DNA from: Clostridia bacterium
GTDB taxonomy: Bacteria; Bacillota; Clostridia; Christensenellales; Aristaeellaceae
DNA length: 64,000 nt
Reading direction: 5' to 3'
Assembly (NCBI GenBank): GCA_017431005.1
Contig: JAFRLY010000044.1
Coordinates: forward strand, 79,354 to 143,353
Below the pieces are notes generated by a model. That model saw only the letters and a program-made list of their open reading frames with translations, was not told where the DNA came from and did no database searches. The position numbers and the translations under genes are program-made. Of this stretch, positions 29,369 to 41,966 are shown piece after piece. Numbering within the stretch: position 1 is the first letter of the stretch; each line of letters begins with the position of its first letter.

Positions 29369-29412
29369 AAAAAGAGGCAGGGGCGCCGTTTACAGGACGC
29401 CCTTGCCTTGAT
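29369..29412 (-). promoter_or_regulatory. Promoter-proximal attenuator hairpin of asnB
   Basis: The predicted transcript starts at about 29412 with ATCAAGGCAAGGGCGTC. At once it forms a stem (GGCAAGGGCG against CGCCCCTGCC, 29376-29407, one mismatch), followed by CTTTTTG. This is an intrinsic terminator beginning about 5 bases from the start site. It shares CAAGGGNGTC with the glnA and glmS hairpins and CAAGGGNGT with amt. Transcription must be released past it for asnB to be expressed. Confidence 0.65.
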
Positions 29413-29419
29413 GGCAGGT

Positions 29420-29448
29420 ATGGTATCATTCCGCCGCGGGCTTGTCAA
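29420..29448 (-). promoter_or_regulatory. Sigma-A promoter of asnB
   Basis: Minus strand TTGACA (29443-29448), 17-bp spacer, TACCAT (29420-29425). The expected start is about 29412. It is back to back with the glnA promoter; the two -35 boxes are 52 bp apart. Confidence 0.7.
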
Positions 29449-29500
29449 GAACGGCACGGGCGAAACGAAAGGCAGTACAAAGGGAATACAATCCGGACGC

Positions 29501-29529
29501 TTGACAGCGGTTCAGGCCGGTGATAATAT
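29501..29529 (+). promoter_or_regulatory. Sigma-A promoter of glnA
   Basis: A consensus TTGACA (29501-29506), an exact 17-bp spacer and TAATAT (29524-29529). The expected start is the A at about 29536, which gives a transcript beginning ATCAGGACAAGGG. Confidence 0.8.
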
Positions 29530-29535
29530 GCGCCC

Positions 29536-29583
29536 ATCAGGACAAGGGTGTCGTGGATGCGATACGCCTTGTTTTTCTTTTTA
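29536..29583 (+). promoter_or_regulatory. Promoter-proximal attenuator hairpin of glnA
   Basis: Six bases after the predicted start, ACAAGG plus GTGTCG pairs with CGATAC plus GCCTTGT (29542-29572) around the hexaloop TGGATG. TTTTTCTTTTT follows. This is a complete intrinsic terminator in a leader of about 70 bases. The start of this transcript and that of asnB match at 16 of 19 positions (consensus CCATCARGRCAAGGGYGTC). Confidence 0.7.
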
Positions 29584-29606
29584 TTGATGATGAGGAGGTC
29601 GGAACG

Positions 29607-30938
29607 ATGAGTAAGTACACGAAAGAGGACATTATCCGCCTGGTCCGGGAGGGTGACGTGGAGTTTATCCGGATGCAGTTCACCGATATTTTCGGTCAGC
29701 TGAAGAACGTGGCGATTACAGCCAGCCAGATTGAGAAGGCGGTCAATAATGAAATCATGATCGACGGGAGCAGCATCGAGGGCTTCGTGCGGATCAATGA
29801 AAGCGATCAGTACCTGCATCCCGATCTGGACACCTTCACAATTCTGCCCTGGCGTCCGCAGCACGGCAAGGTGGCCCGGCTGATCTGCGACGTGTACAAC
29901 CCCGACGGAACGCCCTTCACCGGCGATCCCCGCGGCGTGCTGAAGAAGGTGCTGCAGCGGGCGGCGGACATGGGCTATTCCTTCAACGTCGGGCCGGAGT
30001 GCGAATTCTTCCTCTTCCAGACAGACGAGGAGGGCAGGCCCACCACGACCACGTCGGACGAGGCCGGGTATTTTGACCTGGGCCCGCTGGACCACGGCGA
30101 GAGCACCCGCCGGGAGATCTGCATGGCGCTGGAGCAGATGGGCTTCGAGATCGAGGCCAGCCATCACGAGGTGGCCGCCGGCCAGCACGAGATCGACTTC
30201 CGCTACGCGGATGCCCTGACGTCCGCGGACAATATCATGACCTTCAAGCTGGCGGTTAAGACGCTGGCCCAGAAGAACGGCCTGCACGCGACCTTCATGC
30301 CCAAGCCCGTGTTCGGCATCAACGGCAGCGGCATGCATACCAATATGAGCCTGTTCCGGGACGGGAAGAACGTTTTTGCGGACCCGTCGGACAGGCGCGG
30401 GCTCAGCAAGGAAGCCTATTCCTTCATCGCCGGCATCCTGGCGCACATCCGCGGCATGGCGGCGGTCACCAATCCGCTGGTCAACAGCTACAAGCGCCTG
30501 GTGCCGGGCTATGAGGCGCCCTGCTACCTGGCCTGGAGCGCCAGCAACCGCAGCGCGCTGATCCGCATTCCGGCCGCCCGCGGCATGGGCACCCGGGTCG
30601 AGCTCCGCTGCCCGGATCCCTCCTGCAATCCCTATCTGAACATGGCGGTCTGCCTGGCGGCCGGCCTGGACGGCATCGAGAAGGGTCTGACCCCGCCGGA
30701 CGAGATTACGGAGAACATTTTCGCGATGGACGCCGCGACCCGCGAAGCGAAGGGAATCAAATCCCTGCCCGGCACGCTGAAGGAAGCGGTGGAATGCCTG
30801 AAGGCGGATCCGGTGATCTGCGGCGTGCTGGGAGAGCATGTGCTGACCCAGTATGTGGAGGGCAAGGAAAAGGAATGGGATGCCTACCGGACGCACGTCA
30901 GTCAGTGGGAGATTGAACGGTACATCGTTATGTATTGA
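29607..30938 (+). CDS. glnA: Glutamine synthetase, type I
   Basis: This 443-residue enzyme condenses glutamate and ammonium to glutamine with ATP and is the entry point for nitrogen. Markers include [29 protein letters not shown] (metal ligands), [13 protein letters not shown], the ATP-site [17 protein letters not shown] and the active-site [15 protein letters not shown]. Length and sequence fit the Firmicute GSI-alpha group, which is feedback-inhibited and not adenylylated. GAGGAGG precedes the ATG. Upstream is an attenuated promoter; downstream come the ANTAR regulator and glutamate synthase genes, the same order known in solvent-forming clostridia. Confidence 0.97.
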
Positions 30939-40047: not shown

Positions 40048-40053
40048 ACGCCC

Positions 40054-40102
40054 TGTCAAGCAAGGCGCAAGGGTGTGCGGAACACCCCGGCGCCTTTTTT
40101 TA
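40054..40102 (+). promoter_or_regulatory. Promoter-proximal attenuator hairpin of amt
   Basis: From the predicted start (about 40054) the leader reads GTCAAGCAAGG. It then folds AGGCGC plus GGGTGT against ACACCC plus GGCGCCT (40063-40095) and ends in eight T (40095-40102). The left arm holds CAAGGGTGT, the core shared with asnB, glnA and glmS. Confidence 0.7.
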
Positions 40103-40143
40103 ATCCTGTGCCCCGGCACAGAGGAAAAAAGGGAGTGAGTTGA

Positions 40144-41865
40144 ATGTACTCTGCTGCAAACACGATCTGGGTCCTGCTCGGCGCTGCGCTGGTGTTCTTC
40201 ATGCAGGCCGGGTTCGCGATGTGCGAGGCCGGCTTTACCCGGGCCAAGAATACCGGCAATATTCTGATGAAGAACCTGATGGACTTCTGCATCGGCACGC
40301 CGCTGTACTGGCTGTTCGGCTTCGGCATCATGTTCGGGGCGGGCACGGCGGTGTTCGGCTGGATCGATCCCTTTATCATGAAGGATTACGGCGCGGTGCT
40401 GCCGGCGGGGGTTCCGCTGTGGGCCTACGCGATCTTCCAGACGGTGTTCTGCGCCACCTCCGCGACGATCGTTTCCGGAGCCATGGCGGAGCGTACGAAG
40501 TTCTCCGCCTACTGCATTTATTCCGCGGCGATATCGCTGTTCATCTATCCGGTCAGCGGCCACTGGATCTGGGGCGGCGGCTGGGCGCAGCAGATGGGCT
40601 TCCATGATTTCGCCGGCTCCGCGGCGGTGCACATGGTCGGCGGCATCTGCGCGCTGATCGGCGCGAAGATTCTCGGACCGCGCGCCGGCAAGTACAGCCC
40701 GGACGGAAAGCCCCGGGCGATCCTGGGCCACAATCTGAGTATCGCCGCGCTCGGCGTGTTCATCCTGTGGTTCTGCTGGTTCGGCTTCAACGGCGCCTCC
40801 ACCGTCGCGATGGACAGCGACGAGGCGATCGGCTCCGCTTCCCTGGTGTTCTTCAACACGAACCTCGCGGCGGCCGTGGCTACGCTGGCCTGTATGATCT
40901 TTACCTGGATCCGCTACGGCAAGCCGGATGTATCGATGACCTTCAACGCGGCGCTGGCCGGCCTGGTCGGCATCACGGCCGGGTGCGACGCGGTGAACCC
41001 GTTCGGCGCGGCTGTCATCGGCCTGGTGTGCGGCATCCTGGTGGTGCTGTCGGTCGGCTTCTTTGACAGGGTTGTGAAGATCGACGATCCGGTCGGCGCG
41101 ATTTCGGTCCATGGCGTGTGCGGCGCGGCGGGAACGGTCCTGACCGGCCTGTTCGCCACCGGCGGCACAACGATGAAGGGTCTGCTTTACGGCGGCGGAT
41201 TCAGATTCCTGGGTGTGCAGCTGCTGGGCGTCGCAGCCACAGTCTGCTGGACGGCCGTGATCATTACGGTCGTGTTTACGGTAATCAGGAAGACGATCGG
41301 CCTGCGGGCGGACGCGGCGGACGAGGTCATGGGCCTTGACCGCAGTGAGCACGGGCTCACGACCGCCTACGCGGGCTTCGCGATCCTGCCGGAGGAGGGA
41401 GTATTCACCCTGACCGGCGAGGTACCGCCTGCCTCAGAAACCGCACCCGCGGGTTCGGCTGAACCGGTGGTGACCGCGAAGAAAGCGCAGAAGGCGCCCG
41501 GCGAGCCGGTCTATACCCGTGTGCAGATCGTCTGCCGTCCGGCCAGTCTGGAGTCCCTGAAGACCGCTATGAATGGCATCGGGATCACCGGCATGACCGT
41601 CACGAACGTCATGGGCTACGGCGCGCAGAAGGGCAAGCCGGAGTATTACCGCGGCACGCCGGTGGAGGTAACGCTCCTGCCGAAGGTCCAGGTGGACATC
41701 GTGGTCAGCAAGGTGCCGGTGGCGCAGGTCATCGAGACCGCCCGGAAGGTGCTGTACACCGGCCATATCGGCGACGGAAAGATCTTCATTCACGATGTGG
41801 AGGATGTGGTCCGTGTCCGGACGGGCGAGACGGGCTACGACGCGCTGCAGTCGGATGAGGAATAA
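40144..41865 (+). CDS. amt: Ammonium transporter fused to a C-terminal PII signalling domain
   Basis: This 573-residue membrane protein begins with an Amt/Rh channel (about residues 1-420): GFAMCEAGFTRAKNT, FQTVFCATSATIVSGAMAER, and two channel His in FAGSAAVHMVGG and SVHGVCGA. A linker of about 30 residues (rich in Ala, Pro, Glu) leads to a full PII domain from residue 456. That domain has the T-loop YGAQKGKPEYYRGTP and TGHIGDGKIFIHDVEDVVRVRTGE. In most bacteria the channel and GlnK are separate. Fusion would place the 2-oxoglutarate and ATP/ADP sensor permanently at the channel mouth. The Tyr in the T-loop is kept. No separate glnK is present in this window. Confidence 0.95.
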   Translation: MYSAANTIWVLLGAALVFFMQAGFAMCEAGFTRAKNTGNILMKNLMDFCIGTPLYWLFGFGIMFGAGTAVFGWIDPFIMKDYGAVLPAGVPLWAYAIFQTVFCATSATIVSGAMAERTKFSAYCIYSAAISLFIYPVSGHWIWGGGWAQQMGFHDFAGSAAVHMVGGICALIGAKILGPRAGKYSPDGKPRAILGHNLSIAALGVFILWFCWFGFNGASTVAMDSDEAIGSASLVFFNTNLAAAVATLACMIFTWIRYGKPDVSMTFNAALAGLVGITAGCDAVNPFGAAVIGLVCGILVVLSVGFFDRVVKIDDPVGAISVHGVCGAAGTVLTGLFATGGTTMKGLLYGGGFRFLGVQLLGVAATVCWTAVIITVVFTVIRKTIGLRADAADEVMGLDRSEHGLTTAYAGFAILPEEGVFTLTGEVPPASETAPAGSAEPVVTAKKAQKAPGEPVYTRVQIVCRPASLESLKTAMNGIGITGMTVTNVMGYGAQKGKPEYYRGTPVEVTLLPKVQVDIVVSKVPVAQVIETARKVLYTGHIGDGKIFIHDVEDVVRVRTGETGYDALQSDEE

Positions 41866-41881
41866 AATGTATTATAACGTA

Positions 41882-41911
41882 TTGACGGAATGAGCCCTGT
41901 TATGGTATGAT
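41882..41911 (+). promoter_or_regulatory. Sigma-A promoter of glmS
   Basis: TTGACG (41882-41887), 18-bp spacer, TATGAT (41906-41911). The predicted start is about 41918. It lies 17 bp after the amt stop codon. Confidence 0.65.
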
Positions 41912-41917
41912 CCTCTG

Positions 41918-41966
41918 CGGCAGGGCAAGGGGGTCTTGTACGGACTCCCTTGCTCTCTTTTTATTT
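41918..41966 (+). promoter_or_regulatory. Promoter-proximal attenuator hairpin of glmS
   Basis: GCAAGGGGGTC (41925-41935) pairs over 11 bp with GACTCCCTTGC (41943-41953), with further pairs outside. TCTTTTTATTT follows. The hairpin starts about 4-7 bases after the predicted start. The left arm has CAAGGGGGTC, matching the asnB and glnA leaders. GCCCTG at 41894-41899 could pair with CAGGGC at 41921-41926 if a longer transcript were made. Confidence 0.65.

Follow-up and report, generated by a model that had tools for sequence, protein, structure and literature searches.

The 64,000-nucleotide stretch of a Clostridia bacterium genome analyzed here (contig JAFRLY010000044.1, positions 79,354 to 143,353; hereafter the window) contains four genes, asnB, glnA, amt-PII, and glmS, whose near-consensus promoters run straight into intrinsic terminators. 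Nested in the left arm of each terminator is a small hairpin with a six-base loop carrying A at position 1 and G at position 4 (A1 and G4) and closed by a C-G pair, which is the mark of ANTAR binding sites. From sequence comparison, it is highly likely that an ANTAR protein controls each leader as a promoter-proximal attenuator through this single hexaloop hairpin.

In such a mechanism, RNA polymerase would leave a strong promoter, starting a few bases before the hairpin, and the hairpin (stem of 3 to 8 pairs, loop A-N-N-G-N-N, closing C-G) would form once out of the polymerase. Active ANTAR protein would hold the hairpin, the terminator, whose arm contains the whole hairpin or its 3' strand, could then not form, and the operon would be transcribed. 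Without active ANTAR protein, the far more stable terminator would win and an RNA with a predicted length of 45 to 50 nt would be released. The default state is expected to be off because the isolated hairpins are predicted at −2 to −6 kcal/mol versus −19 to −26 kcal/mol for the terminators.

A hexaloop hairpin nested in promoter-proximal terminators

The elements of the four window leaders are as follows (hairpin loops in square brackets):

29420..29448, minus strand: asnB promoter (TTGACA 29448-29443, spacer 17, TACCAT 29425-29420)
29393..29410, minus strand: predicted ANTAR hairpin of asnB, CAAGGC[AAGGGC]GUCCUG, hexaloop 29404-29399
29362..29408, minus strand: asnB intrinsic terminator and U tract, left arm holding the hairpin (−21.9 kcal/mol, z −3.9)
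29501..29529, plus strand: glnA promoter (TTGACA 29501, spacer 17, TAATAT ending 29529)
29538..29555, plus strand: predicted ANTAR hairpin of glnA, CAGGAC[AAGGGU]GUCGUG, hexaloop 29544-29549
29539..29583, plus strand: glnA intrinsic terminator and U tract (−19.2 kcal/mol, z −4.5)
40019..40047, plus strand: amt-PII promoter (TTGACA 40019, spacer 17, TACAAT ending 40047)
40064..40079, plus strand: predicted ANTAR hairpin of amt-PII, GGCGC[AAGGGU]GUGCG, hexaloop 40069-40074
40062..40100, plus strand: amt-PII intrinsic terminator (−24.9 kcal/mol)
41882..41911, plus strand: glmS promoter (TTGACG 41882, spacer 18, TATGAT ending 41911)
41921..41938, plus strand: predicted ANTAR hairpin of glmS, CAGGGC[AAGGGG]GUCUUG, six pairs, hexaloop 41927-41932
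41919..41963, plus strand: glmS intrinsic terminator and U tract (−26.3 kcal/mol)

All four promoter-terminator pairs were located where an initial annotation of this DNA had placed them, and both the left arms that it quoted and the agreement between the asnB and glnA starts (16 of 19 bases identical) were reproduced. The four terminator folds have z scores of −3.1 to −5.6 against dinucleotide shuffles. Eleven promoters in the window match at least 10 of 12 consensus bases, and exactly these four have a terminator within ~60 nt of the −10 element, the other seven having none; in 10 Markov windows, none of 29 promoters of equal strength has a terminator close behind it. The terminator scanner by itself is a weak test (12 in the window versus 14.8 expected). 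The shared core CAAGGGNGT occurs six times in the window, with 2.0 expected and 1 of 100 shuffles reaching six; four of the sites are the leader left arms, one is the glmS right arm in reverse orientation, and one lies within an open reading frame (ORF) at 54973. Rfam at its gathering score gave no match in the window or in 20 loci from the order and class.

The CAAGGGNGT core corresponds to the small hairpin, GRC[AAGGGN]GYC or GCGC[AAGGGU]GUGC, and in each window leader this hairpin and the intrinsic terminator are mutually exclusive. Across 28 aligned loci of the same genus the conserved part is GGC-AAGGGN-GYC and not the terminator as a whole. The terminator hairpin as the ANTAR target, which is the hairpin that the initial annotation had seen, was rejected because its loops vary freely among relatives. 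The probable target is instead the small hairpin in the left arm.

Conservation was counted upstream of glnA, amt, glmS, and the gene divergent from glnA in these 28 loci. After 7 of 81 upstream regions with a promoter score below 9 were dropped (glmS in L057; the divergent gene in L041, L042, L056, L057, L059, and L066), 70 of the 74 promoter-bearing leaders match C[RANGRN]G[CT][CG], the misses being glmS in L034, L036, and L058 and the divergent gene in L044. A1 is found in 66 of the 70 matching leaders and G1 in the other four (amt in L040, L042, and L058; the divergent gene in L054). Loop position 6 is free (T in 30, A in 20, C in 14, G in 6), which disfavors a longer stem with a four-base loop.

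Across 59 distinct leaders, pairing at the three inner positions is present in 176 of 177 cells, compared with 50 to 107 in slid versions and with none of 5000 column shuffles reaching 176. In the six-pair helix of 41 sequences from several families, 48 cells are changed on both sides (20.3 ± 3.8 when shuffled) and covariation is 0.563 versus 0.272 ± 0.029, neither value being reached in 500 shuffles; the genus leaders alone give 0.285 versus 0.176 ± 0.016 (again 0 of 500), these shuffles leaving kinship among the leaders in place. Some seed leaders were selected for pairing and for A1/G4, which favors the inner pairs and the loop. Slid versions of the helix have far lower covariation. Compensatory changes in the stem take the forms GAC/GUC, GGC/GCC, CGC/GYG, and AUAGGC/GUCUAU.

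The leaders of gdhA separate hairpin from terminator better than any statistic here. Homologs of the protein were matched in 37 of 41 genomes, 30 of them with a locus, and two loci were left unscored (L202, where the gene start is absent, and L208, where the contig begins 36 bases before the gene). A promoter and a 5- to 7-pair hairpin with A1/G4, mostly UAAAGGC[AANGGC]GUCUUUA, precede gdhA in all 22 scored loci encoding one GdhA type and in none of the 6 encoding another. The gdhA terminator, read by eye, is in a different register and pairs with the 3' strand of the hairpin only; the loop lies outside the terminator yet is kept, and the hairpin still blocks the terminator. The amt terminator similarly leaves the AA of the loop unpaired, and still A2 is kept in 14 of 14 amt leaders and A1 in 11 of 14.

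Besides the choice of seed leaders and their kinship, some properties of the hairpins weigh against the proposed attenuator. The isolated glmS hairpin (−4.8 kcal/mol) is the sole one of the four that folds with an open hexaloop; minimum-energy folding of the isolated asnB hairpin favors another pairing (−1.9 kcal/mol), and A1 is also paired to U6 in the isolated glnA (−4.9 kcal/mol) and amt-PII (−5.7 kcal/mol) hairpins. The glmS leaders of L034 and L036 have kept promoter and terminator and lost the A1/G4 hexaloop. These two leaders contain another hairpin, GUACAG...CUGUAC, that could compete with the terminator and may hint at another regulator.

Distribution of the leaders and of ANTAR genes

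A model built on the 59 genus leaders (R1) gave at least one match at E ≤ 0.5 in 40 of 41 same-genus genomes. Its six matches in the window's genome are the four leaders, an opposite-strand echo of asnB, and one that is not among the matches listed. The 65 listed matches that were examined, some of which (e.g., L138, L146, L147, and L161) repeat stretches already sampled, add leaders before genes for LL-diaminopimelate aminotransferase, gltB, gltD, pyrG, purA, purF, gdhA, an N-acetyl sugar amidotransferase, and a PPDK-like gene. Six matches without a promoter (L116, L124, L140, L152, L159, and L162) were set aside as chance, and L120 is ambiguous. The named public relatives are Clostridia metagenome-assembled genomes, including genomes from the goat omasum and the sheep rumen as well as one with the label Christensenella sp.; leaders of this kind are present in 10 of 11 of their loci, and the remaining locus (L077) starts too close to the ANTAR gene. 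In L123 and L125, what appears to be the truncated beginning of glnA separates the leader from gltB, as would be left by loss of glnA from a glnA-gltB copy.

When R1 was run on 121 genomes of the order, none of its matches outside the genus exceeded 25 bits; this suggested a genus-only feature, a view overturned by a second model (R2) that combines promoter and hairpin. The neighborhoods of ANTAR genes in other families were scanned directly, along with weak R1 matches, and the promoter-hairpin-T-run order was found at 18 sites in 246 kb, including one without a downstream ORF (L062) and one from the window's own genus (L066), versus 0 in 2.46 Mb of Markov sequence. The other-family stems differ, for example AAAGGC[AAAGGC]GUCUUU and AUGAGC[AAAGGC]GUUCAU, and most of the sites precede genes similar to type III glutamine synthetase and to a glutamate synthase domain.

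At E ≤ 1e-3, R2 matches occur in 39 of 121 genomes of the order and 64 of 246 genomes of the class, corresponding to 51 of the 162 genera sampled in the class. ANTAR genes, called by Pfam, are present in 38/39 R2-positive genomes versus 26/82 of the rest in the order (p = 4.5e-13) and in 59/64 versus 70/182 in the class (p = 6.5e-15); with class genomes collapsed by hand to genera, the figures are 48/51 versus 42/111 (p = 1.3e-12). The terminator arm invades the hairpin at 51 of 56 R2 sites read with a fixed window, which missed L218 and fell on the wrong place in L244, whose row was left out. No terminator was found at the carA site, L256. Family models identify glnA, asnB, gdhA, purC, carA, asnA, and purB among the genes downstream of the order and class sites, and the identified genes behind the leaders make or use glutamine, glutamate, asparagine, or purines. 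The initial annotation had proposed that a single trans-acting antitermination regulon covers the production and use of glutamine; the homologous leaders that the model searches found in genus, order, and class, along with the positive co-occurrence with ANTAR genes in the order and class samples, lend this proposal good support.

The co-occurrence is imperfect in both directions, and this counts against the reading. Many genomes with an ANTAR gene have no R2 match at 1e-3 (26/64 in the order, 70/129 in the class), and therefore either R2 misses leaders or those proteins use other targets. Conversely, R2 matches without an ANTAR gene occur in 1 genome of the order and 5 of the class, and at E ≤ 0.02 in 13 of 57 matched genomes of the order. 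Within the genus itself, an ANTAR gene was not found in 8 of 37 genomes, and Pfam agrees; G005, G023, G027, and G034 have leaders all the same, and in G006 only a gdhA leader was read. These eight genomes carry little weight because all are 54% to 85% complete.

The ANTAR protein and proposed recognition of a single hairpin

The genes around the leaders are as follows:

27681..29261, minus strand: asnB, glutamine-dependent asparagine synthase
29607..30938, plus strand: glnA, type I glutamine synthetase
31091..31642, plus strand: ANTAR protein, 183 aa, the proposed antiterminator
31639..35958, plus strand: gltB, glutamate synthase large subunit
35963..37369, plus strand: gltD, glutamate synthase small subunit
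37393-39963: 856-aa protein with a PPDK N-terminal domain, without a close NCBIfam equivalog
40144..41865, plus strand: amt-PII, ammonium transporter fused to a PII domain
42004..43872, plus strand: glmS, glutamine--fructose-6-phosphate transaminase

Next to the divergent asnB, the order is glnA, the ANTAR gene, gltB, gltD, the gene for the PPDK-domain protein, amt-PII, and glmS, and it includes a layout like that of the nitR locus, with an ANTAR gene inside a glutamine synthetase/glutamate synthase (GS/GOGAT) cluster (glnA-ANTAR-gltB-gltD). Among the 28 same-genus loci, which were fetched by ANTAR match, 27 have the ANTAR gene directly after glnA. The exception (L066, genome G036) has no ANTAR gene between glnA and gltB and a different, more distant ANTAR type ~7 kb away; its glnA loop is altered to AAUGAC, with A1 and G4 retained. 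A single ANTAR gene was found in the window's genome assembly (85% complete), which supports the protein encoded between glnA and gltB, the candidate named earlier, as the likely factor.

This setting resembles that of NitR, an ANTAR protein through which GS/GOGAT genes of Clostridium saccharobutylicum are induced by antitermination under nitrogen limitation (PMC6316151); the same control has been suggested for the ANTAR gene in the ammonia-assimilation (GS/GOGAT) cluster of Clostridium thermocellum (PMC4676874). The regulator in the window likewise accompanies glutamine synthetase and glutamate synthase genes; the difference is that the available text of PMC6316151 does not describe the RNA target of NitR. 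By analogy with NitR, the leaders would be activated under nitrogen limitation, and activation should be self-reinforcing, a positive feedback, because the ANTAR gene, as part of the glnA operon, is itself downstream of such an attenuator.

The ANTAR domain is C-terminal in the 183-aa protein, for which NCBIfam provides no name, and three solved structures match the protein by sequence (1s8n, 6wsh (EutV), and 4akk). In EutV, Arg142, Lys149, Glu160, and Met172 read G4 or seat the loop (PMC8934654), and these align to R126, K133, E144, and M156 of the window protein in our own numbering of the alignment. K133, E144, and M156 do not vary among the 19 ANTAR proteins compared, of which 16 have Arg or Lys at position 126. 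Less favorable to the proposed loop recognition are Tyr164 of EutV, which stacks on G4 and is His in the window protein, and Lys143, Arg168, and Arg175 of EutV, which are not retained. The position of the phosphoacceptor aspartate is occupied by other residues in the 19 aligned proteins (by eye), and the N-terminal half seems to be receiver-like without a phosphorylated aspartate. The window protein would thus differ from phosphorylated response regulators of the EutV type, while a receiver-like domain without a phosphorylated aspartate has also been reported for AmiR.

The recognition hairpin of EutV and NasR is an A1/G4 hexaloop with a closing C-G pair (PMC3369931). The leaders described here share with the EutV, NasR, and AmiR systems this hexaloop on a short stem, a hairpin that is exclusive with an intrinsic terminator, and several loop-reading residues of the protein. 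They differ in two respects: those systems have two hairpins, whereas the window leaders have one at about +1 and lack the recruitment hairpin (P1), and here the whole hairpin, or in gdhA its 3' strand only, forms an arm of the terminator. The new recognition mode envisaged by the initial annotation was not borne out, since the small hairpin has the known A1/G4 hexaloop and recognition of such a loop has precedent; the unusual features are the lack of a first (recruitment) hairpin and the position of the remaining one at about +1.

In 53 sites the hairpin begins 5 to 13 nt after the −10 element, approximately the first transcribed base by the predicted start, and this position leaves no space for an upstream P1. 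After the hairpin, no second hexaloop at a distance of 2 to 25 nt is within reach in the window leaders. Before type III glutamine synthetase-like genes in L067, L068, L166, L212, L241, and L246, two hairpins stand in series, ~60 to 150 nt apart, each serial hairpin having its own terminator in all five loci checked (L067, L068, L166, L212, and L241). A scan for tandem hexaloops 1 to 25 nt apart with a T-run in 13 loci (L060-L072) gave one pair, which is spurious, its first member overlapping a promoter.

These observations bear on the alternative that the leaders are ordinary two-hairpin ANTAR sites, whose start lies further upstream or whose second hexaloop is nearby, and in which only the gene list is new. 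Characterized ANTAR antitermination targets do have two hairpins, with linkers of 2 to 25 nt in actinobacteria (PMC3369931, PMC8164766), and 8 rows of the R2 site reading contain some second hexaloop-like hairpin within 75 nt. In addition, six genus amt leaders (L042, L049, L051, L136, L139, and L148) have a second perfect hexaloop, GUAC[AARGGY]GUAC, seen by eye just after the terminator. However, this second amt hexaloop cannot aid antitermination because it is located behind the terminator, the clear second hairpins elsewhere are the serial ones described above, and the tandem scan yielded its one spurious pair. Near-consensus promoters with little variation in spacing are retained, and a 12-nt hairpin plus linker would not fit between the −10 element and the hairpin. 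We consider this alternative improbable. Several points nonetheless count against a single-hairpin attenuator: start sites are predicted solely from promoter matches, EutV requires both hexaloops in vivo (PMC3369931, PMC8934654), P1 being the proposed recruiter of the dimer (PMC8934654), and the affinity of NasR for one hairpin is weak, about 12 µM (PMC7496416). The leaders would therefore have to load the protein differently, or the protein would have a better single-loop affinity.

A second alternative, which we regard as very unlikely, is that the core is a DNA site for a transcription factor just downstream of the start, the terminator being incidental or limiting read-through. The core is near the start in every leader and is more conserved in sequence than the right arm, as such a site would be, but the distance from −10 to the loop varies from 14 to 21 nt in four genus gene sets and is 13 nt in one gdhA leader, the stems change in compensatory fashion, and the hairpin blocks the gdhA terminator in spite of its different register. 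There is scarcely any likelihood that the leaders are unregulated, with constitutive early terminators simply damping strong promoters and copying of one leader accounting for the similarity. Paralogous leaders are indeed alike within one genome, and leaders persist in the four genus genomes named above where no ANTAR gene was found, yet conservation rests on the loop and small stem instead of the terminator as such, extends to gdhA, whose loop is not part of the terminator, and to families whose flanks differ, and is accompanied by co-occurrence of the leaders with ANTAR genes. Finally, the strong promoters, the predicted short transcripts, and the single extra hexaloop noted in EutX (Walshe 2022, PMC8934654) leave a bare outside chance that the terminated RNAs are the product and act in trans, for instance by sequestering ANTAR protein, the role suggested for EutX RNA, but after termination the loop would be locked in the far more stable terminator and would not be presented.

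Several parts of an attenuator with a single hexaloop are already known or proposed, namely ANTAR control of GS/GOGAT (NitR), the predicted two-hairpin nitrogen regulons, and the proposed single-hexaloop minimal site. Ramesh 2012 predicted ANTAR nitrogen regulons in Desulfotomaculum, Pelobacter, and others, several of their operons being for PII, ammonium transport, and glutamate and glutamine synthesis as here (PMC3369931); the present leaders would not fit that search because its target was defined as two hairpins. Walshe 2022 redefined the minimal ANTAR binding motif to one hexaloop, asked why two hexaloops should be required when a dimer binds only one, did not settle what single hexaloops do, and urged further study of such sites (PMC8934654). 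The leaders described here share that one hexaloop and differ in that the single site lies within a terminator leader. As far as the literature was searched, most subscription journals being outside its reach, no single-hexaloop clostridial regulon was found, and the new part appears to be a widespread class of single-hexaloop attenuators at the transcription start.

We lean toward the broader view that Clostridia share a class-wide form of nitrogen control in which a single hexaloop within the first transcribed nucleotides mediates ANTAR antitermination, with capture by one loop and faster or polymerase-linked loading. Since there is no recruitment hairpin, the ANTAR protein would have to be caught by one loop in the short time before the terminator forms; if true, such capture would need faster or polymerase-linked loading than the P1-to-P2 transfer proposed for EutV. 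The leaders would provide a natural, repeated case of one hexaloop plus terminator in tens of genera at ammonia-assimilation genes, making the question raised by Walshe 2022 directly testable in vitro with short RNAs, and they suggest that Clostridia of gut and rumen have a common means of regulating ammonia assimilation.

Other elements near the leaders

The glnA and amt promoters may be controlled twice, since an element resembling a separate activator site lies near them. At 29474-29493, 8 to 27 nt upstream of the glnA −35, the window contains a conserved direct repeat resembling GAAAACAAAGGGAAAACAATC, its period being 11 bases, which is also present at the same place in same-genus loci and was seen by eye, reversed, upstream of many amt promoters. 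A perfect palindrome, TTGTATACAGTATACAA, at 40030-40046 spans the spacer and −10 of the amt promoter and looks like a repressor site.

Relatives of the PPDK-domain protein have leaders of their own in other genomes (L141, L142, and L250). An ORF of 18 codons that has a ribosome-binding site separates the asnB terminator from asnB (29291-29347, minus strand); it may be a decayed remnant, because in several relatives a gene for LL-diaminopimelate aminotransferase starts there.

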